From IMG/VR virus record IMGVR_UViG_3300009420_000010, positions 1 to 53,363 of that record: 53,363 nucleotides of DNA. One strand, given 5' to 3'. This document shows positions 15,812 to 52,003 of the stretch, in pieces. The stretch is from a virus. Positions within the stretch are counted from its first letter, which is position 1. Each line of letters begins with the position of its first letter. The translations under genes and the position numbers were made by a program. Under the pieces are notes generated by a model. It ran no database searches. It was not told where the DNA came from and saw only the letters and a list, made by a program, of their open reading frames with translations.

Positions 15812-16419
15812 TTTAATCCTTTAAATAAAGCATCAGCAATTTTCTTTCCATACTTCTTATCAGATGGATAATGTGCTTTTCCAACTATTCTTGAGTGAGC
15901 AATCTCTTCCCCAAGTTCTTTATATAGTGTAGTATTACTTGGATTGTGTTTACTTAATATATCCGCGATTAGGTATCCTTGTATTGCATGACCACTTGGA
16001 TACGATGGTGTTTTCATACTATCAGTTTGTGTACCATTTAAATTAATACCATAGAACTCAGCAATCTGAAAGGGCCTTGGTCGATTATAATCATATTTCA
16101 AAGTCATAATCCACTTTACGGATTCGTGAATTACCTTATCAACATATTCACCAATTCCAAGTTCTTCTGCATAAGGTTTATATACATCCTTTACTTCTTC
16201 ATACTTCAGTACCAATTCTTCATTTAGTTTTAATGAACCCAAATACTTAACTTCATCTAATGTAGTAGAACTATCATTTGCGGGTGGTTGATACCGCGGC
16301 ATAATAATGTTCTCGTGAAAACTTGGTGTAGGTCTTGTAAACCTCTGTTTGTGTTTAGGCTTTATGGTTTCGGTATAAACCATAGATTGTAATTCAATCA
16401 ATTCTTTTAATTTTATCAT
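15808..16419 (-). CDS. PAP2-superfamily acid phosphatase
   Basis: About 203 residues with the PAP2/haloperoxidase signature triad: KYDYNRPRP (K-x6-RP), PSYPSGHA (PSGH, catalytic His) and SRIVGKAHYPSD (SR-x5-H-x3-D). These motifs bind phosphate or vanadate and hydrolyse phosphomonoesters such as lipid phosphates or nucleotides. There is no signal peptide and no membrane helix, unlike lipid phosphatases of the family. I place the start at ATG 16419, overlapping the preceding TGA (ATGA); a GTG at 16428 is the alternative. Its place beside holin-like genes suggests a role at the envelope, but substrate is unknown. Confidence 0.85.
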   Translation of the reverse strand: MIKLKELIELQSMVYTETIKPKHKQRFTRPTPSFHENIIMPRYQPPANDSSTTLDEVKYLGSLKLNEELVLKYEEVKDVYKPYAEELGIGEYVDKVIHESVKWIMTLKYDYNRPRPFQIAEFYGINLNGTQTDSMKTPSYPSGHAIQGYLIADILSKHNPSNTTLYKELGEEIAHSRIVGKAHYPSDKKYGKKIADALFKGLK

Positions 16420-16556
16420 CTTCCCCACTTTGGTTTGTTATCAACTTGTTTAGCTTTCCATTTTTTATGTTGATTGGCGGTCCGACCTTCAATCTTCCAT
16501 TTCTCATTTAATTTTTGTTTTCTTGCTTTTCTTGATTTTGCTGCTTTACTTGGCAC
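16416..16556 (-). CDS. Small very basic protein, 46 aa (GTG start)
   Basis: The frame VPSKAAKSRKARKQKLNEKW... reads from GTG 16554-16556 to TGA 16416-16418, with AAAGGA 8 bases upstream. It fills the gap between the holin-like and phosphatase genes, overlapping the first by 11 bp and the second as ATGA. About one third of residues are Lys or Arg, with Trp-containing repeats (NEKWK, HKKWK, KPKWG). Nucleic-acid or membrane-phosphate binding is possible. Not recognised. Confidence 0.65.
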   Translation of the reverse strand: MPSKAAKSRKARKQKLNEKWKIEGRTANQHKKWKAKQVDNKPKWGR

Positions 16557-20911: not shown

Positions 20912-21781
20912 TTATATCTCCACGTTTATTGTTAATTGAAAAGTATTACTCAATGGGAATGTTTCATCACCTATGATGTAACCCACTCCTATGTTGTAAC
21001 TTTGATATTTAAAATCTAAACCTACTGACGAATAATTTAACCCATACTCTACATCGTTATAGTATCCAATGTTAGTAGATAATAAATCTTTGTAATTATA
21101 TTTTAAACCCTGACCATGAGTGTACCACCCGTTGTATAAGTTCCATTGATTATAGAATCGAAATTGTTTTACTGGTACTGAAAATCCTACACTAAAACTT
21201 GTAGGTACTTCTGTTTTGTAATTATTAAACTCTGGTGCGGCTCCGAAATCTTTAATCATAATATCTAAATCAACTCGTTCCCATAGATTGTTGAAATGTA
21301 TTCCTGCATCTACGAGTAACCCAGTAGCGGATTCGGTATGTAATGTATGGTTAACAATTTTACCACCAAAACCTATAGCAATATTTTCCACTTTCTTTTT
21401 CTTGTGTTTTAACTTAGTACCCCAGCCTACATATGCAACAAGAGAGTTAGGTTCAAACCTTCCTGATATTGTCCCATACTCATCCGCGATGTTCTGTTCA
21501 CCATAATCAAAATATAATAAACTGAAGGTTATGTTTTTATACCCAACACCAACATAATTATATCCCATATCATCCGTGATGTTAGTTAACCAATTTACTC
21601 GGGTAAAACTTAAATCCACCAAACTATCAGTATTAAAGTAATTACGAGCAGGATTATGAAATGTCAATGATTGATTTCCTAAACTTGCTTCTTCTGCAGT
21701 TGGTGATAATGTTAATATTCTATTAACCTGTCCGAATAATGAACTACATAATAGTAAACTTAGTAATATTTTTTTCATCAT
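20912..21781 (-). CDS. PorV/PorQ-like outer-membrane beta-barrel protein
   Basis: 289 residues. Signal peptide MMKKILLSLLLCSSLFGQ, then LSPTAEEASLGNQSLTFHNPARNYFN, which matches the N-terminal hatch of FCB PorV/PorQ/UPF0164 proteins (a small-residue run followed by an NPA turn). The rest is alternating barrel strands ending in FQLTINVEI. PorV carries cargo from the T9SS translocon to the cell-surface attachment complex, and PorQ-like proteins have related roles. It sits 6 bp downstream of a protein with a T9SS sorting domain, supporting a functional pair. Family is fairly clear, paralog assignment is not. Confidence 0.7.
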   Translation of the reverse strand: MMKKILLSLLLCSSLFGQVNRILTLSPTAEEASLGNQSLTFHNPARNYFNTDSLVDLSFTRVNWLTNITDDMGYNYVGVGYKNITFSLLYFDYGEQNIADEYGTISGRFEPNSLVAYVGWGTKLKHKKKKVENIAIGFGGKIVNHTLHTESATGLLVDAGIHFNNLWERVDLDIMIKDFGAAPEFNNYKTEVPTSFSVGFSVPVKQFRFYNQWNLYNGWYTHGQGLKYNYKDLLSTNIGYYNDVEYGLNYSSVGLDFKYQSYNIGVGYIIGDETFPLSNTFQLTINVEI

Positions 21782-21787
21782 CTCTTC

Positions 21788-27395: not shown

Positions 27396-30300
27396 TTACT
27401 CTACTTTTAATTTAGAATCACCAGGTTCTTGTGTTACCAACCTTGAAGGTGTAGTAATCGTTATTTCAACTGGGTCTAATCCATCTATCGTGTTGTTTTT
27501 TGTTAAATTGCTACCTTTATAGAATAACCTAAATAGTGATGAATCAAGTGCTACACTCGTGTATGAACTTCTTTCGTATGATGCACTAAATTGGTAATTC
27601 CCATTGTACTCTGTATGATATCCATATCCCTTTGCTATTGAATCCGATAATGAACTCGTATAGTAAGGAACTTTAATATCATTATGTTCTGATAATCTTG
27701 AAGCAGTGATAAAAGGTTGCACCGCTTCTTCAAATGTTATATCTATATCACCGAATGTAATACTTGCTGTTGCATAAAGTGATTGGAATGGTGTTCTTGG
27801 GTCTATCTCTGCTATCTTATTTAATGTTGGATTCCCAAGTATTCCAATTGAACCACTATCCATTGTATATAAATTAATTTCACCCTCATATAAAGGTAAT
27901 GTACCCGAAAGTGTAAATGGATTAGGTGCTGCAGAACTACTTAACCTACTTGATAATTGTATTCCATCTCCAAATTGATTAGCATTTTCATAATATGTAT
28001 TTTCGAAACTTGGTACTTTACCCACTACCTGTTTACTTCTCTCTAAAATATTTGGTTCTATTAATAAACCAAGTGTTGCATTTGTTCTTGCTGGGACCAT
28101 ATTCCTTAATTGACTCCAAATACTTCCATCAAAGAAAGTTATGATTCTCATATAATCCCAAAAGTTATTTGAACGACTATACTTTTTCCAATACTCTCGC
28201 TGTACTCTCTCTAATCCTCGATAGGTATCAGCATATTGGTCTCTTGGGTCACCAATTTCATTATCAAGGTTTATATCTGCTAAGGAATACATTATATCTT
28301 CATTCACTACATCAGTAGGTGAAAAGAATATACCAAGTTTATTACTATCTGTTGGTGCAAAATCCATTGATGACTGTTCAACTCTAATGTTTGATGATAA
28401 GTTACCACTTAGTTTAGTTGCCTCACTTCTAATCTTTGTTGCGTTTCTTCTTTGAGGTCCAATGTTTGGAACTCTTAATTTTTCTTGGTCTACTAAACTT
28501 CTAAATGGATTACCACTAAAGTTAACTGCACTTGCACTTGTATGATAAGATGTTTTATATGATTTATCATCTACCGATTCTGGTAAAGTATTTAAATCAG
28601 TATTATCATTTATTGGTAATCTAAATATCATATTATCATAAGCAGAACTTGTAGTATTACCATTATAACTTTTTGGTGCTTGGACATGATTATCAAATAC
28701 ACTTTGTGATAATGGTTCACTCCACAATCTAAACTCCATCATTGAACCACTAAACCTTGTACCAAATTCTCCGTTACCACCTATATAAAATGTACCATCA
28801 GTATGGAACGCATTATTAAATGCTGCTCCAGCAGAAGCATTTCCATCTATACTTACACTCTCACTTGTTTGATATAAAATAACTTGCCTTGTAGCATCAT
28901 ATTGTTTTGATGTTAACTGATATGTTATATCTTGTGCGTTTGCATCTGTTACTAAATCTAATCCACTCTGTGATACTCGTGTTAACATCACACTCCACAT
29001 ATCATTATTATAAAATGGTTGTAGTGATGATGTCATAAATTGAATACCTGTTGATGCAGATACACTAAATCTTAACTTACCATAAGAATCGGTTGCTCCG
29101 TTATCTTGTAATTGAATTGCAAAACTATGATTACCAACACCTTTCTGAACAATTGTCATATCCTTTGAAGTGGGTGCTCTAAATCTAAATTCTATAGTTT
29201 CTGGTTTAATTCCACTCGTACCATCATCTTGCCAAGGGAATTTTAAATACTCACTCGATTTAAAATCCGCAGCATAACTAAATTTTCGTTTTATTTCATA
29301 ACTAACACTATCATTTAAATCTGGTCCACCATACTCTCGGATTCTTAGTATTGAACTTGGAATACCATAACAATTTATCAACCCTTTCATCGCTCGTTGG
29401 TTACCCTTGTTCTTCATAAAGAACGGCATATTAGCTAAAATTCGTTTCCATATCTCTTCGGTTAATTCTTCTTGTGGTGATTCATATTTATCTGCACCAT
29501 CTGCGGTTTTACCTAACAAGTATTCGGGTAAGATAACTAAATCATTTCCGCTATCAACTTCAAATCCCATACTCTTCGCTACTTCGCGAACTATATCTTT
29601 TGAAATGCCCTCTGATAATTTATTACTCTTTTCATTTATATCCGTGAAGTGTCTAATATAAGACCATATCTCATCAAATTGTTGTCCAGTCATATCCATA
29701 AAATCTAAGAATACTTTATTCTCTGTATCACTCGCCACATGAAGTGGTAAATTATTTACTAAACTATTTTGGTTATAAGTATCAAATTCTTTTGCATATC
29801 CAGTCCAAGTATCAAACCAAGTAGTGAATGTTGAACCACTTGTATGTTCTAACGTAAAGTCTGTACCATCTGCTCTTGAACCACTTGTCTTAGGCCATGA
29901 GGCAGTATAATATTCACCAACTGAACTTGTAGCGTAACTTGATGAGACAGTATATAGATAATTTTCATATGGGTCGAAACTATTTACCACTTGACGTTTC
30001 TTCATATTTATACTAGCTCGTGTATCTGCTGACGAAGATATGTTTATTAAATTATGTGAATCTGTTTTATATCCCTCTATTAATGTTATTTTCTTTTTAA
30101 AATTTCGTAGTCTATTTTCTGCTCCACCAAAGTTAATAAAGTTTCCAAACCCATAATCCGTTCGGTCTAAACCAATTGCATCAGTTCGTTTAGAATAATC
30201 AATTGATAATTGCACATCTAATAAACTACTTGAATGAATATAATTTGTAATATCTTCCTGAACTTGTGTATCAGTTCCAATTAAATCATCATACTTTTTA

Positions 30301-32414
30301 TAATTAGTACTTCTAAAATTGATTGGATTTGTTGTTGAGTTTAAATTTGGAACTCTTAAAAATAATACTTCAGGAGTTTCTTCTACAAACTTTGTTAATT
30401 TTACCATATCTTCATATGGCTCCATTTTTTCTTCTACGAAATAAACTAAATCATTTTTCTCAATCGTTTCTGGTAATGGTGAATATGTTTTAATATATCG
30501 TGCAGTTCTATCTGCCACATCACGTATCGGTAATTTCTTATCACTATCAGGAACTGATGATTTGGGTGCATCAAGTACATTTATACATAAGTGATACCCC
30601 TCTTTAGTAACCATGTAAGTATTTAATCTGGTTACTTTATTTTTTCTAAAAGTTAAAAACATATCGGTGAATACATCATTAAATCTATCTTCACCACTAT
30701 GGTCTGCTTTATTTGCTCCTTCTTCATATGAAGTATCAACTCTTATTCTATTATAATCCATTATCTCAACAACCTTAGCTGTAAAATCAATGGGTACTTG
30801 AGTGAACACATCAATTGGAACTAATTCGTTTTCAAATGTTACGACAGTTTTAAATTTTAGAATAGACTCTTCATCAGTAGCAAAATCTTCAATTATTTCT
30901 TTTGTAATTGGTCTTGGTCTTTCATCAACAATATATTCGTTATCTGGTTCAAGTGGTGATGCCGGAAGTCTATCTGCCGGAACATTTTCATCTTCTGGTA
31001 TGTTATTAATTACTTCTGCAAGTACTTCTTCAGCAGAATTATCAGTATTGACTGTGGTACTTGAACCGCCTCCGCCACTATCTTCAAAATCTTCAGATAA
31101 TCTTAACATATTAATTCTTTTATCTCTATTCTCTAAGAAATGAGTAATACTATTCCACTTACCAAGTGTTGCAGATGTTACATTATTAGCAATAATAGTA
31201 TGATGTTTATCCAGTATTAGATTCCAAACATCTAATGCTCCAGCTTTAAACTCAGTACCAACTTCATTTGCTAAGTACCATTTACCTTGATGTTTAATTG
31301 GGTGATGGTCTGTAGTGGTAAGATTTTTGTAACGAACTAATTTATCTCCATAAGGTCGATTATCCTTAACTACCTTTAATACTTTTGCGTAACCTTGTTC
31401 GGTTTTAACTTTCATACCAGGTCTCATCATCTTGATTGGAATGGTACGATTATTACTTAATTTAATTTTTGTATCCCCAGTAAAACAAACACTTCCATAC
31501 TCATCATTATCTCTATAATCTTCGTAATCTTGGTCAGGACCGGGTGTTGCTTCTAATATTTCTCGTACTGCAACAGGTTCTTTATCGATAGTAGTTTTTA
31601 CAATATCATTGAATAATACTTTTTTATCCTTAGGTCTTGGAGAATTTCTATTTCCCTTATCAACTAAAACTTGAGTTTCTTTCTTAACCTTAATCTCTAC
31701 CATTTTAGTTTCGGTTAATGTGTATTCATACATACCCTTAATAATAATATCACCACCCACCATAGCATCTGTGAACCCTCTTTCGGATTGTCCAGGAGTA
31801 AGTATTAAAACATTACCATCAGTTTTGTCAAATCTGATTGTCCCAGCACCAGAACCACCTTTTCTATTCGGAACATAAACAAAATCTTTATTTATACCAG
31901 CAAAATTCTTACGATATGGTATATTATTAATTAATTGAATATCTACCTTTACTTCATTTTTTGATGGTGAAACTTCTTTCACCACATATTTCATTTCTTT
32001 TGCATATAACTCTTCTAAAGTTTGATTTGTTGGTGTTTCCCCACCTTTGAAAAATCTTGTTTTGCCATTGATAACCTTAGTGGATATTTTTCCCATATTG
32101 ATGTATCCCTCATCGTTCACCATAATGGTTTTCTTTTGTCCAGCTAATCTTCTAAGGAAAAGATACTTTACTTTGAACTCACCTGAATCATATCCTAAAT
32201 CTCTGATGTGGCCACCAATATCTAAATCAATTGTATTATCATTACGGAATAATACATCACCCGTACTAAGAATATCATCTTCCAATAATGTATCTTCCAT
32301 ATCATAGACATAGAAATGTATAAAATCATTAGGGTCTCTACCAAAACCACTAAACAATCTTTTTGGATATTCTAATTGTTCTCTATCTTTTTCAGTTAAG
32401 CCAAATTGTAACAT
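27396..32414 (-). CDS. Large baseplate/tail-tip protein with Hint and LamG-like domains
   Basis: 1,672 residues. A Hint (hedgehog/intein) domain is inserted at about 310-412: it begins CFTGDTKIKLSN (block A, Cys310), has TTTDHHPI (block B) and ends NLILDKHHTIIANN. A flexible acidic, Gly/Ser-rich stretch follows. A LamG/concanavalin-like domain spans about 1068-1241 (IEFRFRAPTSKDMTIVQKG to MMEFRLWSEPLSQSVFDNH). The C-terminal part is Ser/Tyr-rich. Its position among wedge genes suggests a baseplate-periphery or tail-tip role, with LamG for carbohydrate contact. The Hint end lacks the usual His-Asn followed by Cys/Ser/Thr, so full splicing is doubtful, while N-terminal cleavage stays possible. 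Confidence 0.8.
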   Translation of the reverse strand: MLQFGLTEKDREQLEYPKRLFSGFGRDPNDFIHFYVYDMEDTLLEDDILSTGDVLFRNDNTIDLDIGGHIRDLGYDSGEFKVKYLFLRRLAGQKKTIMVNDEGYINMGKISTKVINGKTRFFKGGETPTNQTLEELYAKEMKYVVKEVSPSKNEVKVDIQLINNIPYRKNFAGINKDFVYVPNRKGGSGAGTIRFDKTDGNVLILTPGQSERGFTDAMVGGDIIIKGMYEYTLTETKMVEIKVKKETQVLVDKGNRNSPRPKDKKVLFNDIVKTTIDKEPVAVREILEATPGPDQDYEDYRDNDEYGSVCFTGDTKIKLSNNRTIPIKMMRPGMKVKTEQGYAKVLKVVKDNRPYGDKLVRYKNLTTTDHHPIKHQGKWYLANEVGTEFKAGALDVWNLILDKHHTIIANNVTSATLGKWNSITHFLENRDKRINMLRLSEDFEDSGGGGSSTTVNTDNSAEEVLAEVINNIPEDENVPADRLPASPLEPDNEYIVDERPRPITKEIIEDFATDEESILKFKTVVTFENELVPIDVFTQVPIDFTAKVVEIMDYNRIRVDTSYEEGANKADHSGEDRFNDVFTDMFLTFRKNKVTRLNTYMVTKEGYHLCINVLDAPKSSVPDSDKKLPIRDVADRTARYIKTYSPLPETIEKNDLVYFVEEKMEPYEDMVKLTKFVEETPEVLFLRVPNLNSTTNPINFRSTNYKKYDDLIGTDTQVQEDITNYIHSSSLLDVQLSIDYSKRTDAIGLDRTDYGFGNFINFGGAENRLRNFKKKITLIEGYKTDSHNLINISSSADTRASINMKKRQVVNSFDPYENYLYTVSSSYATSSVGEYYTASWPKTSGSRADGTDFTLEHTSGSTFTTWFDTWTGYAKEFDTYNQNSLVNNLPLHVASDTENKVFLDFMDMTGQQFDEIWSYIRHFTDINEKSNKLSEGISKDIVREVAKSMGFEVDSGNDLVILPEYLLGKTADGADKYESPQEELTEEIWKRILANMPFFMKNKGNQRAMKGLINCYGIPSSILRIREYGGPDLNDSVSYEIKRKFSYAADFKSSEYLKFPWQDDGTSGIKPETIEFRFRAPTSKDMTIVQKGVGNHSFAIQLQDNGATDSYGKLRFSVSASTGIQFMTSSLQPFYNNDMWSVMLTRVSQSGLDLVTDANAQDITYQLTSKQYDATRQVILYQTSESVSIDGNASAGAAFNNAFHTDGTFYIGGNGEFGTRFSGSMMEFRLWSEPLSQSVFDNHVQAPKSYNGNTTSSAYDNMIFRLPINDNTDLNTLPESVDDKSYKTSYHTSASAVNFSGNPFRSLVDQEKLRVPNIGPQRRNATKIRSEATKLSGNLSSNIRVEQSSMDFAPTDSNKLGIFFSPTDVVNEDIMYSLADINLDNEIGDPRDQYADTYRGLERVQREYWKKYSRSNNFWDYMRIITFFDGSIWSQLRNMVPARTNATLGLLIEPNILERSKQVVGKVPSFENTYYENANQFGDGIQLSSRLSSSAAPNPFTLSGTLPLYEGEINLYTMDSGSIGILGNPTLNKIAEIDPRTPFQSLYATASITFGDIDITFEEAVQPFITASRLSEHNDIKVPYYTSSLSDSIAKGYGYHTEYNGNYQFSASYERSSYTSVALDSSLFRLFYKGSNLTKNNTIDGLDPVEITITTPSRLVTQEPGDSKLKVE

Positions 32415-33054: not shown

Positions 33055-34233
33055 TTACCTCACCACTTTAAATTCATAATCATCATCGTATATCATAGAA
33101 GTTTGATTCACACCACTACCACTAACGACCTTAACTTCAAATCTATAAAATCTTTCGGGTTGGAAACCATCCATCCATACATTAAAGTAATTACCACTTG
33201 AATCACAACTAACTATTGAGCCTGTACTAAATGGTATTATTACATCCTCGGTATGAGCATCCTTTACTGAATAATATGTACCTTGTCCCATTGCAGTAGT
33301 ACCTTGTGGTAAAGTTTTAATTGTTAATGCTGCGGGAGTTGTCTCAAATCCTCTTGTTGGATATAATTCTCTACCCACAACTCTAAACTTTACTTTTGAT
33401 TTCTCTTTGTATTCAGGCCTCATGTTTTGAAAGTAAACTGTCAACCTATCTAAATCAGTTGCTGCTAATTCACCCAAACTTCCTGTGTTCCATGATGAAT
33501 CATCCCACTCCACTTCTAACTTTGGCGGAAAGATTGTGTGGGTTTCTCTTGAAAAGAATTTCAAATTACCAAGTGGTGTTGAATTTCCCTCTGCAGAACC
33601 AGTTGCTGTTGTGGGGTCAAATATAGAATATAAACTTTGACTGGTTGCTGTATTATTTCTTTTTACAATAAATCCATCATTTGGAAATACTGAACTTGAA
33701 TAGATATGATTCTTAACTAAATCTGTTACATCCATTCTTATATCTCGTGTTTCATAAACTAAATCAAATGATGATGAAACATTATATGAGCTATCTAAAC
33801 TTGAAGTGTACCAAGTACCACCTTGTGTTGTACTACCACTAACCCATTCAGTTTTCTCGGTATCATTATCACGATACTTCCAACTCGCACCATCACTTAA
33901 TACAGGGTCTCTATCTAATGTTCCTGTTCCACCAGTCCAACTTCCACTAACCATATAGGTTTCTAATGTTTGTTCGGTAGCAAGTTCTGTTGAAGTTGCA
34001 TCATATAAGTTTAAAAAATATTTTGCACCAACTGGTATTATTCCACTTGCTACGGATGATGAGATATAACTATAATCAAATTTTAATAATGCTCTTGATA
34101 CACTAATTGTTGTACCTGAAGAATTAACATTTTTTGAAACCTCTAATATCTCATCTAAACCTGTATTAATTGAAGATGTGATATTGCCTTGATAAATTGT
34201 TGTATCTGTTATTGGGTATTCAAAATAAAACAT
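33055..34233 (-). CDS. DNRLRE-like beta-sandwich virion protein, 392 aa
   Basis: The first half follows the DNRLRE-type pattern: ITDTTIYQGN, SRALLKFDYSYI, YFLNLYDATSTEL and VSGSWTGGTGTLDRDP with DGASWKYRDN. The C-terminal half is an Ig-like region (KVKFRVVGRELYP; YRFEVKVVSGSG). Such domains occur in surface and tail proteins. Its ATG overlaps the end of the gp6-like gene, so it belongs to the baseplate operon. Confidence 0.7.
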   Translation of the reverse strand: MFYFEYPITDTTIYQGNITSSINTGLDEILEVSKNVNSSGTTISVSRALLKFDYSYISSSVASGIIPVGAKYFLNLYDATSTELATEQTLETYMVSGSWTGGTGTLDRDPVLSDGASWKYRDNDTEKTEWVSGSTTQGGTWYTSSLDSSYNVSSSFDLVYETRDIRMDVTDLVKNHIYSSSVFPNDGFIVKRNNTATSQSLYSIFDPTTATGSAEGNSTPLGNLKFFSRETHTIFPPKLEVEWDDSSWNTGSLGELAATDLDRLTVYFQNMRPEYKEKSKVKFRVVGRELYPTRGFETTPAALTIKTLPQGTTAMGQGTYYSVKDAHTEDVIIPFSTGSIVSCDSSGNYFNVWMDGFQPERFYRFEVKVVSGSGVNQTSMIYDDDYEFKVVR

Positions 34234-36203
34234 TAAATATCTCCTACTACTCTACCCTCAATATCTAAATTGGGGAATTTAAGTTCAAATATACTTGGGT
34301 CAAGTGATGAGTAAATAATTCCATCTTTTGTTGCTGATTGTAAATCATATACGTGTCCACTATATCCATTCTCAGTTCTCCACTTGTTCTCGACAACCAC
34401 CATTTGTTTTTGTGGATTATCATCTTCGGGTGGAACAACACTTGCAACTCCGTCAACTAACGATATTGTATATGCAATATCACTTAAAATTATCGGTTGA
34501 TTAATTTGCCACTTTTGAATATTAAAATGATTCTTTACGGCATCAATACATTTTAATAGTACTGAATTTTTATTAAATCCTCTTTGAGTAATAATTGAAA
34601 ATCTCGCACCAATATTAATTGTGTAACCATCTTTAATATTTATTGCATCAGTTAGTATTCTATATTGTGATAAGTAAACTCTAAGATTTTGTTTAACTGC
34701 TGCATTCAATGCAACTAACTTTCTATTCCTATCATATCCCAATACATACATATTTAATGCTAATGGATTAGGTATTGTTGTTATGTTTTTCTCTCTAACA
34801 ATCTTACCATCCTTTACAATAGTTTGAGTATTCTGTTCTAATTGTTCATCTTGTACAATATGTACTTTAGCAACATTACCATACTTCTGTGGTAATGAAT
34901 AAACTCTTGTTATATAATCTTCTTTAGTAACTGCTCTATTTTGTGAATTAAAATATGCTAATGCATTCTGTCTAATTTCTTCTGCAGATTCACCACTACT
35001 TCCACCAGTTGCAGGTTCTTTATTCGTAATACTAATACTCGTCTTAACATCTTTTACACTATCAGCATCTAATCCCTCTTCATTTAATGTTGTAGAAAGA
35101 CTATCATTATTTTTCAATTCACCTGAAAGAATATTATCTTCTATTGCTCCACCATATGTATAATTCACAGTCAATGTAATATTACTTGGTGCTTGTCCAA
35201 AAGCTTTTGTTTTTAAAAAGTTACTTGGGTCAAATGATGCATCAAGTTTACTAACACCAGTTCCTAATGATGAACCAACATTGTCTGGGTTTGGAACTAA
35301 TTCTTCATCTGCATTTGTAGATGTTCCTGCTCCAAATCTCAATTCTGATTTACCATCACTTCTTGTATAGGTTGTAAATCTGTTTGCAGTTTTAATTAAC
35401 TTTAACATATAAGGTGCATCTGCAGCGTTAGCAGAAACATCCGGTGTGGTTGTTGCGTTATTTTCTGCTGATGAAAAGACTGTATCTTGTGCTAAGAAAG
35501 GAACTTCATGCCAAGTATTCCCATCATCATCAACCATACTTAAAATCTGTATTACTCGTTCTTTACTTAAAATAACTTTATCAAATTTAATCCCTTCCCC
35601 AAATGTAAAATTCTCGGAAGTTTTTGTACCAGATTCTAATAAACATTTTTTAGTTAATGTAAAGTGTGTTGGTGTGTCACTATCATATTGTGATATTTTT
35701 TCTACTCGCGAATCAAGTGATGAAGATGTTTTAAAATTAACATCATCTAACAATCTAAAAGTTCTACCTGTCTTTGATGAGAATAAACTATCAGCGTTAA
35801 CCATTAATGCATAATCTAAATCAGGTGTTACATCTGTACCATCATCTTCTGCTGGTACTTCAATTGTTATTTCTGAAAGTACTGATGCTGGATGAGATAG
35901 TTTTGGTTTATACCCAAATGATTGTGCAATCTTATAAATATTTTTCTTTTCTTCCGCAGCATGTAATAGTGTTTCTCGATATTGTGTATCGATATAAAAA
36001 GATAATGTATCACCAACATATGCTGCCATTTCAATAAACATCATACCTGGTGAAGATTCATTGAAATCATTATATGCAGTTGGATAATAAGATTTAGCGT
36101 ATTCTAATAAATTAGCTCTTATGGACGTAAACTCCCTACCAATATATCTAATATCTCTTTTTTCTTTTTTATTACTTAGCCCATAATCTACATCATTAGC
36201 CAT
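34233..36203 (-). CDS. Baseplate wedge protein, gp6/J-like
   Basis: 656 residues, near the 660 of T4 gp6. The N-terminal motif series (RDIRYIGREFTSIRANLLEYAKSYYPTAYNDFNESSPGMMFIEMAAYVGDTLSFYID) is characteristic of gp6/gpJ wedge proteins. SAEEIRQNALAYFNSQNRAVTKEDYITRVY in the middle is the other well-conserved block. It forms the dimeric ring joining the wedges around the hub. Directly downstream of the gp25-like gene, as in many myoviruses. Confidence 0.9.
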   Translation of the reverse strand: MANDVDYGLSNKKEKRDIRYIGREFTSIRANLLEYAKSYYPTAYNDFNESSPGMMFIEMAAYVGDTLSFYIDTQYRETLLHAAEEKKNIYKIAQSFGYKPKLSHPASVLSEITIEVPAEDDGTDVTPDLDYALMVNADSLFSSKTGRTFRLLDDVNFKTSSSLDSRVEKISQYDSDTPTHFTLTKKCLLESGTKTSENFTFGEGIKFDKVILSKERVIQILSMVDDDGNTWHEVPFLAQDTVFSSAENNATTTPDVSANAADAPYMLKLIKTANRFTTYTRSDGKSELRFGAGTSTNADEELVPNPDNVGSSLGTGVSKLDASFDPSNFLKTKAFGQAPSNITLTVNYTYGGAIEDNILSGELKNNDSLSTTLNEEGLDADSVKDVKTSISITNKEPATGGSSGESAEEIRQNALAYFNSQNRAVTKEDYITRVYSLPQKYGNVAKVHIVQDEQLEQNTQTIVKDGKIVREKNITTIPNPLALNMYVLGYDRNRKLVALNAAVKQNLRVYLSQYRILTDAINIKDGYTINIGARFSIITQRGFNKNSVLLKCIDAVKNHFNIQKWQINQPIILSDIAYTISLVDGVASVVPPEDDNPQKQMVVVENKWRTENGYSGHVYDLQSATKDGIIYSSLDPSIFELKFPNLDIEGRVVGDI

Positions 36204-36205
36204 TG

Positions 36206-36658
36206 TTATCCTCCTGAGTTAAAATTGAATGTTATCGTTTCTGGGGAATCAGGGTCATCGACAGTTACGACAAATTCTAAAGTAACCACTACTTGGTTTG
36301 GGTTTTGTTTATCTTGTACCACAAAAACATTTTGTGCTTTTATATAAGGTAACCATGCTTCTAAAGCTTCGTGGATTGCTTCTTCAATCCTATCACTTAA
36401 ATCTTCACCAACTTGTTCAAATAATAATGATGGTAAGTTACTACCAAAATTAGGTTGACCTACGCGTTCACCTTTTTGAGTTAACAATAAATTTTTAATA
36501 TTAGAAAATGCTTGTTCCTTGACCGTTTTAGCTCTTGGAAAAAATCCAACATTATCTCCCTTATATGTTAACGGAAATGTACACCCGAAGAATGAATCTT
36601 CATCTTCATTAATCTGTGTGACAGATGGGTTATTGGTTAAGTTTACATTTTCTGGCAT
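36206..36658 (-). CDS. Baseplate wedge protein, gp25-like (lysozyme-fold family)
   Basis: 150 residues (T4 gp25 is 132). The core FSNIKNLLLTQKGERVGQPNFGSNLPSLLFEQ is the conserved block of the gp25/W family, followed by a helix IEEAIHEALEAWLPYI and the beta-hairpin VVVTLEFVV. gp25 caps the sheath end at the baseplate and starts sheath assembly. Its stop and the gp6-like start are separated by 2 bp. Confidence 0.92.
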   Translation of the reverse strand: MPENVNLTNNPSVTQINEDEDSFFGCTFPLTYKGDNVGFFPRAKTVKEQAFSNIKNLLLTQKGERVGQPNFGSNLPSLLFEQVGEDLSDRIEEAIHEALEAWLPYIKAQNVFVVQDKQNPNQVVVTLEFVVTVDDPDSPETITFNFNSGG

Positions 36659-37155
36659 TATTTGTTACTCTTCATCTTATCATGTTTCATTAATTTACTA
36701 TAATCTTTTGTCAACGCGTTAACTAAACTCTCAGGTAATTGGTCTGAAGAAACTCCTGCTTGTTTCATCGTTTGTACTGCTCCAACTTTTCTAGCAGTTT
36801 CTTTATCTCCACCAAGACCACCTTCCCCATAACCTAATAGTTCCGTTGCTCGTGTTGAATCAAATACTCCACCACCCATTGTTGGATACTCATCAGTATC
36901 CCCTTTACCTAACCCAACAGTCTCATTTAGAATGCTGTTTAATGATTCGTTTGATGTATAGTTAACGGGGTCTCGTTTTTTTACAACTTTCTTTTGAATC
37001 GGTTTCTTCTTCACGATTGGTGCGGTTGATTTGAGAGTAGTACGTTTAGCTTTCAAACTATTTATTCCCTCAGTAATAAATATCTGTTTGACCTCTTTTT
37101 GTACTTCTCTACGCACAACTTCTTGTATTATTTTTACTAATTCTTTTTTAGTCAT
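36658..37155 (-). CDS. Lys-rich virion-associated protein, 165 aa
   Basis: The N-terminal helix (KKELVKIIQEVVRREVQKEVKQIF) is amphipathic, then a long basic, low-complexity region (KAKRTTLKSTAPIVKKKPIQKKVVKKRD). The C-terminal region holds a GKGDTDEYPTMGGGVFDSTRA segment common in small phage structural proteins. Stop and gp25-like ATG overlap by one base. Role unknown. Confidence 0.7.
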   Translation of the reverse strand: MTKKELVKIIQEVVRREVQKEVKQIFITEGINSLKAKRTTLKSTAPIVKKKPIQKKVVKKRDPVNYTSNESLNSILNETVGLGKGDTDEYPTMGGGVFDSTRATELLGYGEGGLGGDKETARKVGAVQTMKQAGVSSDQLPESLVNALTKDYSKLMKHDKMKSNK

Positions 37156-37166
37156 TTCTAACTCCT

Positions 37167-37619
37167 TTATCCTGGTACATTGTAACCTGCAAATGGTAAA
37201 GGTGCTGGTGCTGATGGAAATAATCCACTTACCTGTCCCATGTGGTTTTTAAAACTCATTATTAATTGTTCTATAAAATCTTCTATTGTTGCATTTGCTG
37301 CTCCCATTGGAACATATCCTGCAGTTATTCCTGGTACGATTACAGTCGAACCCGATGCCGTAACTCCACCCAACCAATATAATTTTAATCCATTATCAAG
37401 TTGGATTGGAAATGGTGTTACACCATAAGATGAAAAACACAATTTCAACATTACTTCTAATCCTGCCACATTACCACTAGCTAATGGAGCGGGTGGTGCC
37501 GTACCAATTGTCATTCCAGTCTTAACACATTTATCATATGATTCGGCAATTACTTTAGCCATATCATCACCTGCGTCTATACCTTGTTTATACTCAGCTC
37601 TAAATATATCCCAACTCAT
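37167..37619 (-). CDS. Hypothetical virion protein, 150 aa
   Basis: Starts MSWDIFRAEYKQGIDAGDDMAKVIAESYDKCVKTG, then Gly/Ala/Pro-rich (GTAPPAPLASG; PSAPAPLPFAGYNVPG). The order (helix, Pro/Ala linker, small-residue region, helix FIEQLIMSFKNHMGQV) recurs in T4-like marine phages next to spike genes. It probably joins the central hub; exact function unknown. Confidence 0.65.
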   Translation of the reverse strand: MSWDIFRAEYKQGIDAGDDMAKVIAESYDKCVKTGMTIGTAPPAPLASGNVAGLEVMLKLCFSSYGVTPFPIQLDNGLKLYWLGGVTASGSTVIVPGITAGYVPMGAANATIEDFIEQLIMSFKNHMGQVSGLFPSAPAPLPFAGYNVPG

Positions 37620-37653
37620 ATTTTCCTCTGAAATTCTATTCCATTCTTCTTCA

Positions 37654-38781
37654 TTACTCTACCACATTATTTGGACTTTTTATTTGAGCCAAGGTGGATT
37701 TTAAACTTGCTAATATTGGTGCACCAGGTCCAACAATTACGGGTCCTGTTGGTGCTAACAAACCAGTTTCAATTAATGTTAAGATATCATTTAATTTTGA
37801 TTCAAGTATTGCTCCCAATACCATTGGTTCTGTTGCTTGAATACTACCAATCTTAGTTACAGGAGATTCAATAACAACTTCTTTTGCTGCTGTTAAGGAA
37901 ATGTTATTGTTACTAAACAATCCAATATCTCCACCATTCTTTGTATTAAAAATAATTCTATCCGAACTTAGTAAAATGTTTTTACCCTCATATGGTGGTG
38001 GTGTTAATTGACTTGCAGTACCAGGTGTAAATTCTAATGGTTGATTAGTAGTGATATATACACTCGAACCATCTGTATCGATTACTTCTTTAATTGGTAC
38101 TTTCTTATCACCCTCTTTAGTTTGTCCGGCGTTTAAAATAATATTTGGGGATTCCAGATTTTCATTTTTAATATCACTACCCAATCTGATAGTGTTTCCA
38201 AATCTACCCTCAATAATAACATCACCCTCACTTGGTAAAATTTTTCTTGCATCAGCATCTGCTGTCATATAGTATCCGAGATTTACTGAAGTGTCATCTT
38301 GTTCATTTGCAGTATCTATTTTTTCTGATACTAAGGTATCTTTTGATTTACCTTTACTCAATCCATGTTGTGTATTAAAATTTGGATTACCAAAAAAGTT
38401 TATTTGGGTTGTATAAAATAATTGCCCAAGATACTTTACACCAATTACAATCTCACCAATTATTGGTGTTGTTTGAATCTGTGGATTCAATGGTTTATAA
38501 TCATTTAACTTATCAATGTTTAATCCAACTTCAGAAATTACAAACCTACCCTTTACCCCACCGAGATAAGTATAATCGGGCCCATCACTCCCTTGTGGGA
38601 AAGAGTTTTTTGTATCATCTAAATGTACCTCTAATATTTCTAAAGGTTCTAACTCATAAAACTTACCATCTTCAGATGATATTTCTTTTATTAATCGTAA
38701 AGTAGATTCAACATTTTGTACTCTATTACCCATGATTGGACCTGATTTAGTCCCAACATTTGGTTTTATATTATACGACAT
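37654..38781 (-). CDS. Baseplate central spike/hub protein (gp5/VgrG-like)
   Basis: 375 residues. An OB-fold-like N-terminal half (VKGRFVISEVGLN; PIIGEIVIGVKYLGQLFYTT) is followed by beta-helix-like strands: GNTIRLGSDIKNENLESPNIILNAG, ILLSSDRIIFNTKNGGDIGLFS, NISLTAAKEVVIESPVTKIGS. This OB-plus-beta-prism layout matches spike proteins of contractile tails. No lysozyme domain is present, unlike T4 gp5. It would form the trimeric needle under the tail tube. Confidence 0.78.
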   Translation of the reverse strand: MSYNIKPNVGTKSGPIMGNRVQNVESTLRLIKEISSEDGKFYELEPLEILEVHLDDTKNSFPQGSDGPDYTYLGGVKGRFVISEVGLNIDKLNDYKPLNPQIQTTPIIGEIVIGVKYLGQLFYTTQINFFGNPNFNTQHGLSKGKSKDTLVSEKIDTANEQDDTSVNLGYYMTADADARKILPSEGDVIIEGRFGNTIRLGSDIKNENLESPNIILNAGQTKEGDKKVPIKEVIDTDGSSVYITTNQPLEFTPGTASQLTPPPYEGKNILLSSDRIIFNTKNGGDIGLFSNNNISLTAAKEVVIESPVTKIGSIQATEPMVLGAILESKLNDILTLIETGLLAPTGPVIVGPGAPILASLKSTLAQIKSPNNVVE

Positions 38782-39161
38782 TAATTATCTAATTTTGCAG
38801 TTATGTTATCCGAATGGTCTTGAAGTTCCTCGACCGTGCTTTTAATATTATTCATTAATTGTTCTTTTTCTCTATCACTCAACATAAAGTTATCATCATC
38901 ATCACCTTTACTATTAGCAGTTGCCATTCTCTGTACAATGGTTGCTAACTTAACAAGTTGTTCATCGTTCTTTACGTTGATTTCTAAATACTCTTTCAAC
39001 ATAGGAATTATCTGCACAGCGGTATCACCATCCTTGATGAACCCAACTACCTCTTTCATTAGAACTTCTAATTGAATTTTGTTTTTGTTTGAGTTATCAT
39101 AAATGTCTTTAAATACATCTGATAAAGTTTTTCCCTCGAATACTTCAAAGTCTATTGCCAT
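38781..39161 (-). CDS. Hypothetical helical protein, 126 aa
   Basis: Acidic, helical protein (MAIDFEVFEGKTLSDVFKDIYDNSNKNK) with DREKEQLMNNIKSTVEELQD near the C-terminus. It is the first gene of the minus-strand tail module, read from TAGGTAGAATTATG, and its stop overlaps the spike ATG. Possibly a tail-assembly factor. Confidence 0.65.
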   Translation of the reverse strand: MAIDFEVFEGKTLSDVFKDIYDNSNKNKIQLEVLMKEVVGFIKDGDTAVQIIPMLKEYLEINVKNDEQLVKLATIVQRMATANSKGDDDDNFMLSDREKEQLMNNIKSTVEELQDHSDNITAKLDN

Positions 39162-39317: not shown

Positions 39318-39539
39318 ATGAAGGAAATCATAACACTCGTAAAAGGCTGGGTAGATGACATTGCTCAACTACTTATGTCGTTTGTAGCCATTGGTGCGGT
39401 TTCTGAAGTAATATTCGGAAGCGGTATTTTCGGCGTTAATGTTATTGGTAACCTAACAGCAATAATTAATAATTTTGGCGAATCAGGTTTCGCTGGATTA
39501 GTAGCTTTATTGGTGTTGGTGGGTTTATTCCGTAAGTAG
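39318..39539 (+). CDS. Small membrane protein with two hydrophobic helices, 73 aa
   Basis: Starts MKEIITLVKGWVDD, then helix one (about 15-35, IAQLLMSFVAIGAVSEVIFG), a Gly/Asn loop (FGVNVIGNLTAIINNFGESG) and helix two (about 57-71, FAGLVALLVLVGLF), ending RK. GGGAG lies 10 bases before the ATG. It stands alone on the plus strand between two minus-strand operons, with its own TATAAATA box and a strong hairpin terminator just after it, implying a separate, probably abundant transcript. Topology fits a holin, a membrane-bound virion component or a small pilin-like subunit; nothing in the sequence decides which. Confidence 0.75.
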   Translation: MKEIITLVKGWVDDIAQLLMSFVAIGAVSEVIFGSGIFGVNVIGNLTAIINNFGESGFAGLVALLVLVGLFRK

Positions 39540-39560: not shown

Positions 39561-39590
39561 AAGGGGGAGCTTATCCGGCTCTCCCTTTTT
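39561..39590 (+). terminator. Intrinsic terminator after the 73-aa membrane protein
   Basis: Stem GGGGGAGC (39563-39570), loop TTATCCG, GCTCTCCC (39578-39585) with one G-T pair, then five T. A-T pairs at 39561-39562 extend the stem. The minus-strand GH6 gene ends at 39589, so this hairpin can also separate the two convergent transcripts. Confidence 0.8.
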
Positions 39591-40401
39591 AGTTTATAAG
39601 AGATAAGGTTTTTTCAGCATCAAATCTACCAGCTTTAGGCCAACCATTTACGGCACCATCACTTTCACCTGGTGTTTTAATCCAAAGATAAGCATCACAA
39701 CTTCTTGATGAAGTTCTGATTGTTGGTTTTTCTCCAAGTTTCATTTCTTCTGGATTAAAGGTTTCCCATACTTCAGTACCATTCCTTGATGTATCTATAA
39801 TATAATTTAAATCGGTTCTATCGGAAACTTTATCACCCCATCGAATACATTTATCCGTAGTAACAAAGTTACTTACATTAACTGAAAAGCCTTTTATCTT
39901 ATTATCATTAAAAAGATTTAAATAAGTAGACGCATCTCCAACCTTTAACCAATTGGGATGTCCTATATCAAGATAAATTTGTGCACTACATTGTGATAAG
40001 AGTTTTAAAGATTTTCTGATTAACCTTGTTCGACTTGTTCGTTGAAAGAAATTCATCCTTCTCATATGTGGAATAGCATCAGGTTCGAATATTACTATTG
40101 GTTTATATGAACCAATACCTTTTGCAATATCTCCAATATATTTTATATATTGTTTATCAGATAACCCACCCTTTGAATGTCCACCTACATCTCTACCAGG
40201 TATAGCATATAAAACTATAATAGGTTGGTATGGATGTGCTCTTCTACATAATCTTCGTATTCTTGTTGTAACTCGTTTGAGTGGTTTTTTAGGATTACTT
40301 ATTATCCAAAAAGAATTTGGTTGTGATGTAATCGCTTTTAATTGTGGATATTCATCGGTATTTATTTTCCGATAATCCCAATCTTGTTTATAGAGTTTCA
40401 C
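39589..40401 (-). CDS. Glycoside hydrolase family 6-like protein
   Basis: 270 residues matching the GH6 (cellulase/cellobiohydrolase) core in order: PIIVLYAIPGRDVGGHSKGG with the Asp after GR (~71), SDKQYIKYIGDIAKGIG, PIVIFEPDAIP with the EPDA acid (~106), AQIYLDIGHPNWL, GFSVNVSNFVTTDKCIRWG, YIIDTSRNGTEVWE and LWIKTPGESDGAVNGWP. Both Asp positions that act in GH6 inversion are present. Known GH6 enzymes cut beta-1,4-glucans. There is no signal peptide, carbohydrate-binding module or linker, so the protein is a compact catalytic domain made in the cytoplasm, released by lysis or carried in the virion. Its 3-bp end overlap with the late sigma gene places it in that operon. Confidence 0.88.
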   Translation of the reverse strand: MKLYKQDWDYRKINTDEYPQLKAITSQPNSFWIISNPKKPLKRVTTRIRRLCRRAHPYQPIIVLYAIPGRDVGGHSKGGLSDKQYIKYIGDIAKGIGSYKPIVIFEPDAIPHMRRMNFFQRTSRTRLIRKSLKLLSQCSAQIYLDIGHPNWLKVGDASTYLNLFNDNKIKGFSVNVSNFVTTDKCIRWGDKVSDRTDLNYIIDTSRNGTEVWETFNPEEMKLGEKPTIRTSSRSCDAYLWIKTPGESDGAVNGWPKAGRFDAEKTLSLIN

Positions 40402-41120
40402 TCAAACCAACTACCAGTTCGTTTAGTATCAACTGAACCAGTAGCTACATAAGCCTTGTGTAGATTATTATGATGTTTCTTCATCACATTAATTACACGA
40501 GTAATGTGTTGTGTATTAGAACCCGTCATCTCACGAATAAGAATGTATAATGCTTTCTTATTAAAGTTATCAATATTATGTCTCATATCAATTAACTCCA
40601 CTACAGAATTAGCAACATCCAAATCTTTCTTTCGTTTAAAGACTGTTGTTAAATTATTTCTCCAATAATCCGCAAGTTGTTCTATATATTCCATTGCCAT
40701 AGATTTAGATTCCTTACCTCGAAGTTCTCCGACAGGGTCTCTTTTATAATCCATTACATCTTCAGAATCATGTTGTTTCATCTTCTTGTAGTTATTGTTG
40801 TTATGTAAAATTAAATAATTCTTAGCAACAATACTAAAGTATGAAAAAGCTTTTCCCTTACCTTCAGCAAATTTGTGGATGTTCATATATAAGAATGATA
40901 CCACTTCGTGTTTCACATCATCCGATGGAACATCAAAGTAATAAAATTTAAATGTATGAATTATATTCTCAGCAAGTTTCTCAAATGGTGTGCGAATATG
41001 TTCATTGTAAATTCGTTGTTTCATATGAGCACGAGTTTCTTTATTCAATCTGACGATTGCATCTTCAGTTCCTTGATGAAAGTAATATCGTGGTGATGTC
41101 TTTTTTGCTTTTGGTGGCAT
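40398..41120 (-). CDS. Late-transcription sigma factor, gp55-like
   Basis: 240 residues (T4 gp55 is 185). The block ENIIHTFKFYYFDVPSDDVKHEVVSFLYMNIHKFAEGKGKAFSYFSIVAKNYLI is the region 2-like signature shared by T4-type late sigma factors; the C-terminal helices (ALYILIREMTGSNTQHITRVINVMKKH) are a likely helix-turn-helix. gp55 directs core RNA polymerase to TATAAATA boxes, several of which lie at plausible places here. It overlaps the GH6 gene downstream by 4 bp. Confidence 0.85.
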   Translation of the reverse strand: MPPKAKKTSPRYYFHQGTEDAIVRLNKETRAHMKQRIYNEHIRTPFEKLAENIIHTFKFYYFDVPSDDVKHEVVSFLYMNIHKFAEGKGKAFSYFSIVAKNYLILHNNNNYKKMKQHDSEDVMDYKRDPVGELRGKESKSMAMEYIEQLADYWRNNLTTVFKRKKDLDVANSVVELIDMRHNIDNFNKKALYILIREMTGSNTQHITRVINVMKKHHNNLHKAYVATGSVDTKRTGSWFE

Positions 41121-41381
41121 TTATATATCCTCTATTGTTAATTTATTTAAATCATTGACCGTATCTTTAATTGCTGTAAAGACTGTTCCGATATCATCAT
41201 CGGATTCAAACTTACCCTCAGAATCTAATTCTGCAAGTGTTCGTTGTGTTAAAATAATTTGTGCCGAGAAGTTCTCAACCCAATCTTCTAACCTTTCTAC
41301 TTTTTGTATTTGATTATATGTTGTCCAACTTAGGGCTATACAAACTATTACAAATACCCCAAGCAATATTTCTACTACCAT
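41121..41381 (-). CDS. Membrane-anchored coiled-coil protein, 86 aa
   Basis: An N-terminal membrane helix (VVEILLGVFVIVCIALSWTTY) then a coiled coil (IQKVERLEDWVENFSAQIILTQRTLAEL) and an acidic tail. Start overlaps the HD gene stop by one base and its end touches the sigma gene. Role unknown. Confidence 0.65.
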   Translation of the reverse strand: MVVEILLGVFVIVCIALSWTTYNQIQKVERLEDWVENFSAQIILTQRTLAELDSEGKFESDDDIGTVFTAIKDTVNDLNKLTIEDI

Positions 41382-42154
41382 TATTTATCTCCAAACAACT
41401 CGTTAAATAACTCTTTAGCATTTTCACCTTTGAGTTTAGTATCAACTTCTGTTGCAACTGCATTTTTGATGTTACCAACTGATTTAGCAACTCGTTTAGT
41501 TTCTTTTTTATCTCCACGCTTCCATTCATCAGATTCTATAAATGTTGCCATCATATCTGCTTGGTGTAATATTCGTGATATATGACTTCGTAATCCAGTC
41601 TCTGGTAAGAACGTCATTAAGTATTTTTTATTTGCATCTTCATACATCCCATCTGTTAACATTAAACCCATATATTCGTTTTCTGTTAAAGGTATTTGAA
41701 AATGTTGAAGTAAATAAAATGCTCTATCCGTTACTGTCATATAAGGTAATTCAGGGTTGTGTGTATAAATCTTACCTTGATTCTTCCTATGCCAATCTGA
41801 TTCATTTGGTATATAGTAATCATAATCTAAATTACCTACTTTACCTAAGTCGTGATGTAATGCAGCAAAGATTAATTCTTCATCTGTAAAATCAATTTCT
41901 GCTCCCTTTTCTTCCCACAACTTTTTTACTGATTGTGAAAAATCTACAATGTGTAATACGTGTTCTACATATCCACCCACCATAGCATTGTGATAATGTT
42001 CCTTTGCACTTGCTGGTGCTAACATCATCCTATCCTCGAAATAATCATACATCTTATTTAATTTCTCAAGTCGTTCACCCGAGAAATTCATAGTGATAAT
42101 ATTTCGCAGTGAGTTGTAATTCTCTTGTATTTTTTCTGCTGTTAAACTCTTCAT
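41381..42154 (-). CDS. HD-domain metal-dependent phosphohydrolase
   Basis: 257 residues. HD motif series: YVEHVLHIVDFS (first His), ALHHDLGKVG (His-Asp, about 98-107) and SRILHQADMMATF (later His/Asp). HD proteins hydrolyse nucleotides or act on nucleic-acid termini; many phages use them in nucleotide turnover or against cyclic-nucleotide defence, but the substrate here is unknown. First gene after a sigma70-type promoter, so it may be early, and it is followed by the late sigma factor. Confidence 0.85.
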   Translation of the reverse strand: MKSLTAEKIQENYNSLRNIITMNFSGERLEKLNKMYDYFEDRMMLAPASAKEHYHNAMVGGYVEHVLHIVDFSQSVKKLWEEKGAEIDFTDEELIFAALHHDLGKVGNLDYDYYIPNESDWHRKNQGKIYTHNPELPYMTVTDRAFYLLQHFQIPLTENEYMGLMLTDGMYEDANKKYLMTFLPETGLRSHISRILHQADMMATFIESDEWKRGDKKETKRVAKSVGNIKNAVATEVDTKLKGENAKELFNELFGDK

Positions 42155-42187
42155 ATTATTTATATATCTCCAATTTTAGTATGACTT

Positions 42188-42217
42188 AATATAAGGCTTT
42201 TTCCCTATACAAGTCAA
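42188..42217 (-). promoter_or_regulatory. Sigma70-type promoter before HD hydrolase and late sigma operon
   Basis: Minus-strand -35 TTGACT (42212-42217), 18 bp spacer, -10 TATATT (42188-42193). The spacer carries GTATAGG and AAAAAGCCT, nearly the same as in the promoter at 51946-51975, and an A-run with ACAC precedes both -35 boxes. A near-duplicate sequence at two unrelated genes strongly supports a real promoter. It puts the late sigma factor under early or middle control. Confidence 0.85.
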
Positions 42218-42226
42218 GTGTTTTTT

Positions 42227-47791: not shown

Positions 47792-47825
47792 TTTAAATAT
47801 AACCTTTTCATTTTTTATTGTTTTG

Positions 47826-48166
47826 TGGAGCTGGCGGGAGTCGAACCCGCGTCCAGTCTGCTTTTTCCAAAGGGTCATTCACAACTTAGTGAGATTCCAA
47901 ATAAGTAGTTATCTCCAACCCACTTCACCATTTTACACAGAATGGCTTAACTGAAAGATTAAGTTTAACTCCAACCTATAAAAAGAGTGGTCTACCGATG
48001 TCGACATCTTATCTTACTATCGGTGTCATAAGTAAGATGTTACGCGTAAGCGTAAGTTAAATTAGCTTGTGTGCCAATTAATCAAAGTGAACCTTTTGTA
48101 GCGAGTCTTGTTCAAACTCCGTTGCACCCAAGTGTCAAATAACACCTGTCGATACCAAGCAGCCCC
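47826..48166 (-). ncRNA. ssrA: Transfer-messenger RNA (tmRNA)
   Basis: A 341-nt one-piece tmRNA. The 5' end GGGGCUG pairs with 3' CAGCUCC, followed by discriminator A (47826). The T-arm reads GCGGGTTCGACTCCCGC, and the 5' part has GGTATCGACAGG, the usual tmRNA D-like segment. CCA is not encoded. tmRNA with SmpB frees ribosomes stalled on broken messages and tags the products for degradation. No smpB is visible in this window, so it would rely on host SmpB. It lies between small phage genes on the same strand. Confidence 0.95.
48040..48066 (-). other. tmRNA tag reading frame, deduced tag ANLTYAYA
   Basis: Within the tmRNA, the frame GCT...TAA encodes ANLTYAYA and then stops. With the tRNA-borne Ala it would give AANLTYAYA. 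It begins with Ala-Asn as in common tags and ends in Tyr-Ala rather than the common Ala-Ala. The resume codon is inferred from position and the Ala-Asn opening; a second frame (AHKLI then stop) is possible but less tag-like. Confidence 0.65.
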
Positions 48167-51894: not shown

Positions 51895-51945
51895 ATTTAA
51901 CTCCTTTATTTATTTGTTTATTTGTCAATTTTTATTTATTACTTT

Positions 51946-51975
51946 AATATAAGGCTTTTTGCCTATACGAGTCAA
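51946..51975 (-). promoter_or_regulatory. Sigma70-type promoter before the zinc-ribbon gene
   Basis: Minus-strand -35 TTGACT (51970-51975), 18 bp spacer, -10 TATATT (51946-51951), followed by AAAG. An A-run precedes the -35. The spacer matches closely the promoter at 42188-42217. Supports a conserved early-promoter class. Confidence 0.88.
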
Positions 51976-52003
51976 GTGTTTTTTTTAATTAATTTTACCG
52001 ACA

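Follow-up and report, generated by a model that had tools for sequence, protein, structure and literature searches.

The window analysed here is the whole 53,363-nt stretch of IMG/VR virus record IMGVR_UViG_3300009420_000010, and it shares 99.98% identity with a portion of an 82-kb contig from this phage. The locus of interest is an operon that begins with an HD-domain phosphohydrolase-like gene, continues with the small gene g86 and a sigma-like gene, and ends with a gene for a GH6 protein (Table 1). On its far side, a terminator-like hairpin and the convergent gene g73 separate the GH6 gene from g126, which opens a block of baseplate genes. In this block, the gp25-like and gp6-like genes yielded baseplate matches in PHROGs.

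Table 1. Features of the GH6 locus in the window
Feature	Position	Strand	Basis or remark
Baseplate block: hub/spike-like, g150, g165, gp25-like and gp6-like wedge genes	34233..38781	-	PHROGs, synteny
g126, conserved 126-aa gene, far edge of the cargo slot, opens the baseplate block	38781..39161	-	
g73, 73-aa putative membrane protein, convergent to GH6, part of the slot	39318..39539	+	conserved
Terminator-like hairpin, 11-bp stem, between GH6 and g73	39561..39587	.	
GH6 endo-beta-1,4-glucanase-type catalytic domain, 270 aa, GTG start	39589..40401	-	Pfam, PDB phmmer, AF2 fold, residue conservation
Third key Asp D248, GESDG motif	codon 39660-39658	-	GH6 alignment
Key residue D108, EPDA motif	codon 40080-40078	-	GH6 alignment
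Key residue D71, RDVGG motif	codon 40191-40189	-	GH6 alignment
Conserved 240-aa sigma-like protein upstream of GH6, overlaps the GH6 start by 4 nt	40398..41120	-	
g86, small protein, GH6 operon	41121..41381	-	synteny in about 20 clade A loci
HD-domain phosphohydrolase-like, first gene of the operon	41381..42154	-	weak Pfam HD match; immuto orthologue annotated phosphohydrolase
40-bp sigma70-type promoter element, TTGACT-18-TATATT, before the GH6-ending operon	42186..42225	-	0 mismatches to motif

The order HD, g86, sigma-like, GH6, g73 (on the other strand), g126, hub, g150, g165, gp25, gp6 was found in about two dozen close loci. The cultured relative Flavobacterium phage vB_FspM_immuto (Immutovirus) has the same order from HD, g86, sigma and g126 through the hub gene to gp25 and gp6, but its slot contains neither GH6 nor g73, and gp117, its orthologue of g126, follows directly after the sigma-like gene. 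The orthologues of gp6, the sigma-like gene and g126 are collinear in immuto, showing that an Immutovirus-like order of baseplate and replication genes is shared, and the best-conserved genes of the window are about 40% identical to those of immuto. The sigma-like protein is conserved in immuto and also in Microcystis phage Mel-JY01. In the latter, the block opens in the same way with the sigma-like gene, g126 and the hub gene, but GH6 is missing, and a gene annotated as chitinase is found just behind the hub gene.

The assignment of the last gene of the operon to GH6, which had been proposed in a preliminary description of the locus from the sequence alone, was borne out by three lines of evidence. 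A profile search, one of the checks suggested there, matched PF01341 to residues 16-252 with E=1.3e-40 and 140.5 bits, the cut-off being 27. In phmmer searches against the PDB, Mycobacterium tuberculosis Cel6 (1up0) was found with E=2.8e-43 and Thermobifida fusca E2 (1tml) with E=2.6e-26. The structure prediction, likewise suggested earlier, was performed with AlphaFold2 from 35 phage sequences and yielded a model with a pLDDT of 86.9 and a pTM of 0.88. Foldseek matched it to M. tuberculosis Cel6 with E=4.9e-25 and a TM score of 0.87, and VIA-align superimposed it on 1up0 over 268 residues at 2.5 Å (Z 31.4), so that the distorted TIM-barrel fold of the family is present. Searches with the protein in PHROGs and NCBIfam gave no GH6 match, PADLOC reported nothing, and a search for a lysin domain found only the GH6 domain. 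The open reading frame encodes a full GH6 domain, and a chance resemblance is excluded. Among the structural matches, endoglucanases (Z 30-31) ranked above cellobiohydrolases (Z 24-26), and the phage protein is nearer to the former in length as well. Because endoglucanases are the top fold matches and the protein has only 270 residues, an open, endo-acting cleft would be expected.

The active site is whole. Both key Asp residues of the preliminary description, D71 and D108, are invariant in 93 of 93 full-length viral relatives from IMG/VR and in 79 of 79 cellular sequences, and ten active-site residues, including all three key Asp, are intact in every one of the 93 viral proteins. We take D108 to be the equivalent of the catalytic acid D117 of T. 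fusca Cel6A and D71 that of the neighbouring Asp D79. Alignment to 1tml placed K242, E246, W151 and D145 in the active site as well; together with D248 these presumably correspond to T. fusca K259, E263, W162, D156 and D265, respectively. The dN/dS ratios between GH6 relatives were 0.04-0.31, and thus selection on the phage gene is purifying.

One conserved subsite position is different. A Trp that is present in all 79 cellular sequences, and that we take from the alignment to 1tml to be W231 of T. fusca Cel6A, is replaced by Thr in 22 of 22 clade A proteins and by His or Ile in 36 other phage proteins. A literature search for T. fusca Cel6A mutants found none. In addition, a Lys in the SKGG loop is nearly constant in the phages and rare in cellular relatives. 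A substrate shift is therefore possible, and the replacement of the Trp implies that the substrate may not be plain cellulose, which speaks against the reading that we prefer below. Taken together with the loss of disulfides described in the next paragraph, the lost Trp and the gained Lys might indicate a cytosolic GH6 subfamily whose specificity has changed towards a bacterial envelope glycan that is not a known GH6 substrate, perhaps peptidoglycan or a lipid-linked precursor, and which would serve in lysis or takeover; we regard this version as unlikely.

Textbooks describe GH6 as a family of secreted cellulases, yet of the hallmarks of secretion the export signal is absent from the phage proteins and the conserved disulfides are incomplete in most of them. 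The preliminary description had noted that a signal peptide, a linker and a binding module were missing, and this was confirmed. In the window, an in-frame stop directly precedes the GTG, so no longer GH6 start is possible. Strongly hydrophobic N-termini were found in 0 of 93 viral versus 55 of 80 cellular proteins. The GH6 domain begins at residues 1-23 in 98 of 99 viral proteins, compared with about residue 40 or later in all 80 cellular relatives. The first disulfide pair is present in none of 93 viral versus 75 of 79 cellular sequences, the second in 9 of 93 versus 79 of 79, and neither is complete in 84 of the 93 viral proteins. As judged from these sequences, the phage GH6 looks like a cytosolic version of a normally secreted enzyme, and since a protein folding in the cytoplasm would be expected to lack disulfides, it reads as adapted to folding there. 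The difference is clear in comparison with M. tuberculosis Cel6 (CelA1, 1up0/1uoz) and other bacterial GH6 endoglucanases. These are like the phage protein in fold (Z 31), active-site residues and endo-type length, but they have a signal peptide, are secreted and contain two disulfides, whereas the phage protein has neither pair, is about 35% identical and has Thr in place of the subsite Trp.

Relatives of the gene were found almost exclusively in uncultured viruses and in cells. A first pass through IMG/VR found 46 loci; a scan guided by a profile found 187, the best 80 of which were retained. Among cultured phages, only 3 of 50,697 records matched, namely two of Streptomyces phage Gilgamesh and a faecal contig, and their GH6 proteins were 30-35% identical. 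The best cellular relatives among the matches listed were 37-41% identical and are mostly secreted enzymes of Actinomycetota and some candidate phyla. When 81 dereplicated sequences were placed in a maximum-likelihood tree, the 43 from phages formed one side of a branch with a support of 100/100, and the two sequences from the phage collection grouped with cellular GH6. A single origin of the phage branch is likely from this tree, the loci of which were fetched with phage-derived patterns and from lists of the best 80, a choice that bears on this claim. The earlier remark that GH6 is not a usual phage gene thus applies to isolates, but not to the uncultured viruses with their 187 loci. Viral GH6 is also not unprecedented: it has been reported from Mariana Trench sediment viromes as an auxiliary gene of carbon metabolism (PMC8725595). 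What is new here is the phage-only, presumably cytosolic branch together with its hotspot, neither of which was found in the part of the literature that was searched.

The Mariana Trench genes, compared here by their description, likewise lie on viral contigs and are presented as auxiliary genes for the use of algal cellulose (PMC8725595). If the same applied to the window, GH6 would supply the host with sugars from environmental cellulose, and that published interpretation is the point in its favour. However, an enzyme that lacks an export signal has no exit from the cell and could not reach external cellulose before lysis, which makes feeding of the host highly improbable.

The position of GH6 in the genomes was found to be variable. 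In other phages, the gene lies between a conserved gene and gp32-like/UvsX-like replication genes, or beside a peptide deformylase gene, and, with the baseplate-side, replication-side and peptide-deformylase neighbourhoods, it has settled in at least three contexts. To characterize the slot of the window lineage, 79 new loci were fetched by the sigma-like gene, and both sides of the slot were present in 71. GH6 together with g73 occupied the slot in 10 of these, g73 alone in 34, other genes in 21, and in 6 it was empty. The other cargo comprised a DNA methyltransferase, an HNH protein plus sigma region 4, GmrSD_N/NsnA-like genes, lipoproteins and unknowns; this diversity spans loci L204-L282. 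The region from the sigma-like gene to the baseplate block is thus a cargo hotspot, and GH6 is accessory cargo and no core late gene. More generally, the phage-only branch is optional cargo of many uncultured aquatic phages.

Two candidate partners were rejected. The gene g73, considered as a dedicated partner in the manner of a holin, is 73-100% conserved across the 80 viral loci listed, but 72 of 80 loci among the matches listed have no GH6 nearby, and no match was found in cultured phages. For the replication-context phages, c1 was considered; it is a core gene in immuto, which lacks GH6, and GH6 was present at this replication-side site in 6 of the 80 c1 loci listed.

The proximity of clade A GH6 to the baseplate block, directly upstream of it, could suggest that the enzyme is a virion component, namely a depolymerase on the tail that breaches the capsule during entry. 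A parallel exists in Gilgamesh gp72, an annotated GH6 protein of a cultured phage that is encoded among minor tail genes. However, gp72 has 444 aa with an N-terminal extension and is outside the marine phage branch. The protein of the window is a stand-alone GH6 domain with no structural domain, trimerisation domain or extension, its genomic place varies between phages and is far from the tail genes in some, and related phages have the same baseplate block without GH6. A role in the virion is therefore distinctly unlikely.

The preliminary description had placed GH6 beside a late sigma factor and had noted that such timing would fit release at lysis or packing in virions. Neither the late sigma label nor the late timing could be upheld. 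The sigma-like neighbour matched the PHROG of late sigma factors only below threshold (E=0.5), a PDB profile search gave no match, and its AlphaFold2 model is all-helical with low confidence (pLDDT 62), so that the label is unproven. Instead, a sigma70-type element heads the operon. The 82-kb contig has 10 copies of it with up to 9 mismatches, against 13-14 mismatches for the best hits in shuffled sequences, and a 120-kb relative has a similar number. In clade A loci the element precedes the HD gene. For the L007 group, where the start of this gene is called further upstream, the stretch covered includes only the beginning of the element. Near-identical copies, about ten per genome, were observed in loci L056-L059 and L050-L055, and in the window at 51944-51983 (-) in addition to the one in Table 1. 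Copies precede other genes as well, but none was found in front of the window's tail genes. In the window, the late promoter of T4 type, TATAAATA, was not enriched (15 found versus 12.6 expected). Given the TTGACT/TATATT element and the lack of enrichment of a T4-like late promoter, the operon looks sigma70-driven, and its promoter looks early rather than late. The location of GH6 in the replication region or beside peptide deformylase in other phages also argues against late timing.

An early promoter could point to a function in the living infected cell, such as cytosolic trimming of sugar intermediates of host or phage, e.g., lipid-linked oligosaccharides, in the course of remodelling surface glycans or taking over the host. 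The cytosolic, disulfide-poor character of the protein, the replication-region or accessory context in other phages, and the methyltransferase and defence-like genes that share the slot would fit such a function, as would the clusters of sugar-nucleotide and glycosyltransferase genes in immuto and in the relative G003. GH6 is, however, unlinked to the glycosyltransferase cluster, and we know of no intracellular beta-1,4-glucan in these hosts that could be the substrate. Overall, activity inside the living cell appears rather unlikely. Early transcription leaves a role in lysis possible, because an enzyme that lacks an export signal remains confined to the cytoplasm for as long as the membrane is closed. 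In the marine myophage Melnitz, a proposed endolysin is under an early promoter (PMC9004378).

The window probably derives from a large T4-related phage of marine Bacteroidota-type hosts. A host of this type with a type IX secretion system is suggested by the Flavobacterium phage relatives and by two genes of the window: one for a protein of 876 aa that combines a signal peptide with a T9SS type A sorting domain (20912-24418 (-); TIGR04183, above cut-off), and, directly after it, one for a PorV/PorQ-family outer-membrane protein (NF033709, 90.1 bits at a cut-off of 90). The phage thus apparently carries cargo for type IX secretion along with a PorV-like component. Alternatively, Marinimicrobia or other such groups may be the hosts. 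Several other features were observed. The window contains a complete tmRNA gene (47825-48166 (-)) with the tag GTQANLTYAYA, and the tag of G003 is GDSQPSYAYAA. A 1672-aa tail-region protein (27396-32414 (-)) contains a Hint (Vint) domain (PF14623, E=1.4e-18) together with a stretch that weakly resembles lectins, and a PAP2-family phosphatase-like protein is encoded at 15808-16428 (-) (PF01569, E=1.1e-9). The 120-kb relative encodes a TonB-dependent receptor-like protein (L055:5270-8056 -) and a type IV pilin-like protein (L055:17057-17491 -). In G003, a long run of sugar-nucleotide/glycosyltransferase-like genes, judged by eye, extends over about 59-83 kb (L052-L053) and is comparable to the annotated cluster of immuto.

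If GH6 acts at lysis, it could be the lysin itself, i.e., it could replace the endolysin after having been re-tuned to the beta-1,4 bonds of peptidoglycan. A search for six common peptidoglycan hydrolase families in 14 large GH6 contigs gave one clear match (GH19, in G007), no homologue of the immuto and Mel-JY01 lysins was found in the contigs of the window phage, and the altered subsite residues would agree with a new substrate. However, the contigs searched are fragments, so that absence of a lysin from them is no proof; the nearest relatives of the protein are glucanases; and close phages without GH6 must lyse without it. Furthermore, at least one GH6-carrying phage, G007, has a GH19-type lysin in addition to GH6, and thus GH6 need not be the cell-wall lysin. 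Replacement of the endolysin is consequently quite improbable.

We tentatively favour, as more probable than any of the others but slightly less likely right than wrong, the reading that the protein is an active, inverting GH6 endo-beta-1,4-glucanase that is optional phage cargo and is released at lysis against a beta-1,4-glucan of the host. The enzyme would be made in the cytoplasm during infection, would be trapped there as long as the membrane is intact, and would be set free together with the progeny at lysis. It could then cut beta-1,4-linked glucan around the burst cell, be it exopolysaccharide, a cellulose-like matrix or capsule, and this would free virions and help them to reach new hosts. 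Release at lysis is deduced solely from the missing export signal, and the early-looking promoter of the operon as well as the replication or accessory neighbours in other phages speak against it. Bacterial GH6 enzymes act on beta-1,4-glycans, and a capsule or matrix substrate, as proposed in the preliminary description, is plausible. A precedent for an envelope glucan as substrate is CslZ of Streptomyces, a GH6 protein that is encoded with the genes for the synthesis of a cellulose-like envelope glucan (PMC9040799). CslZ also lacks a binding module, but it is a lipoprotein of the cell itself and not a phage gene (PMC9040799).

Taken together, a widespread phage-only branch of GH6 has dropped export and disulfides and has kept the whole active site, which implies that a glucanase has some task during infection. 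It also argues against the view that such genes feed the host from environmental cellulose, since the enzyme cannot leave the cell before lysis. The finding raises the question of whether marine phages carry enzymes that break down the glucan matrix around their hosts when the cells lyse.
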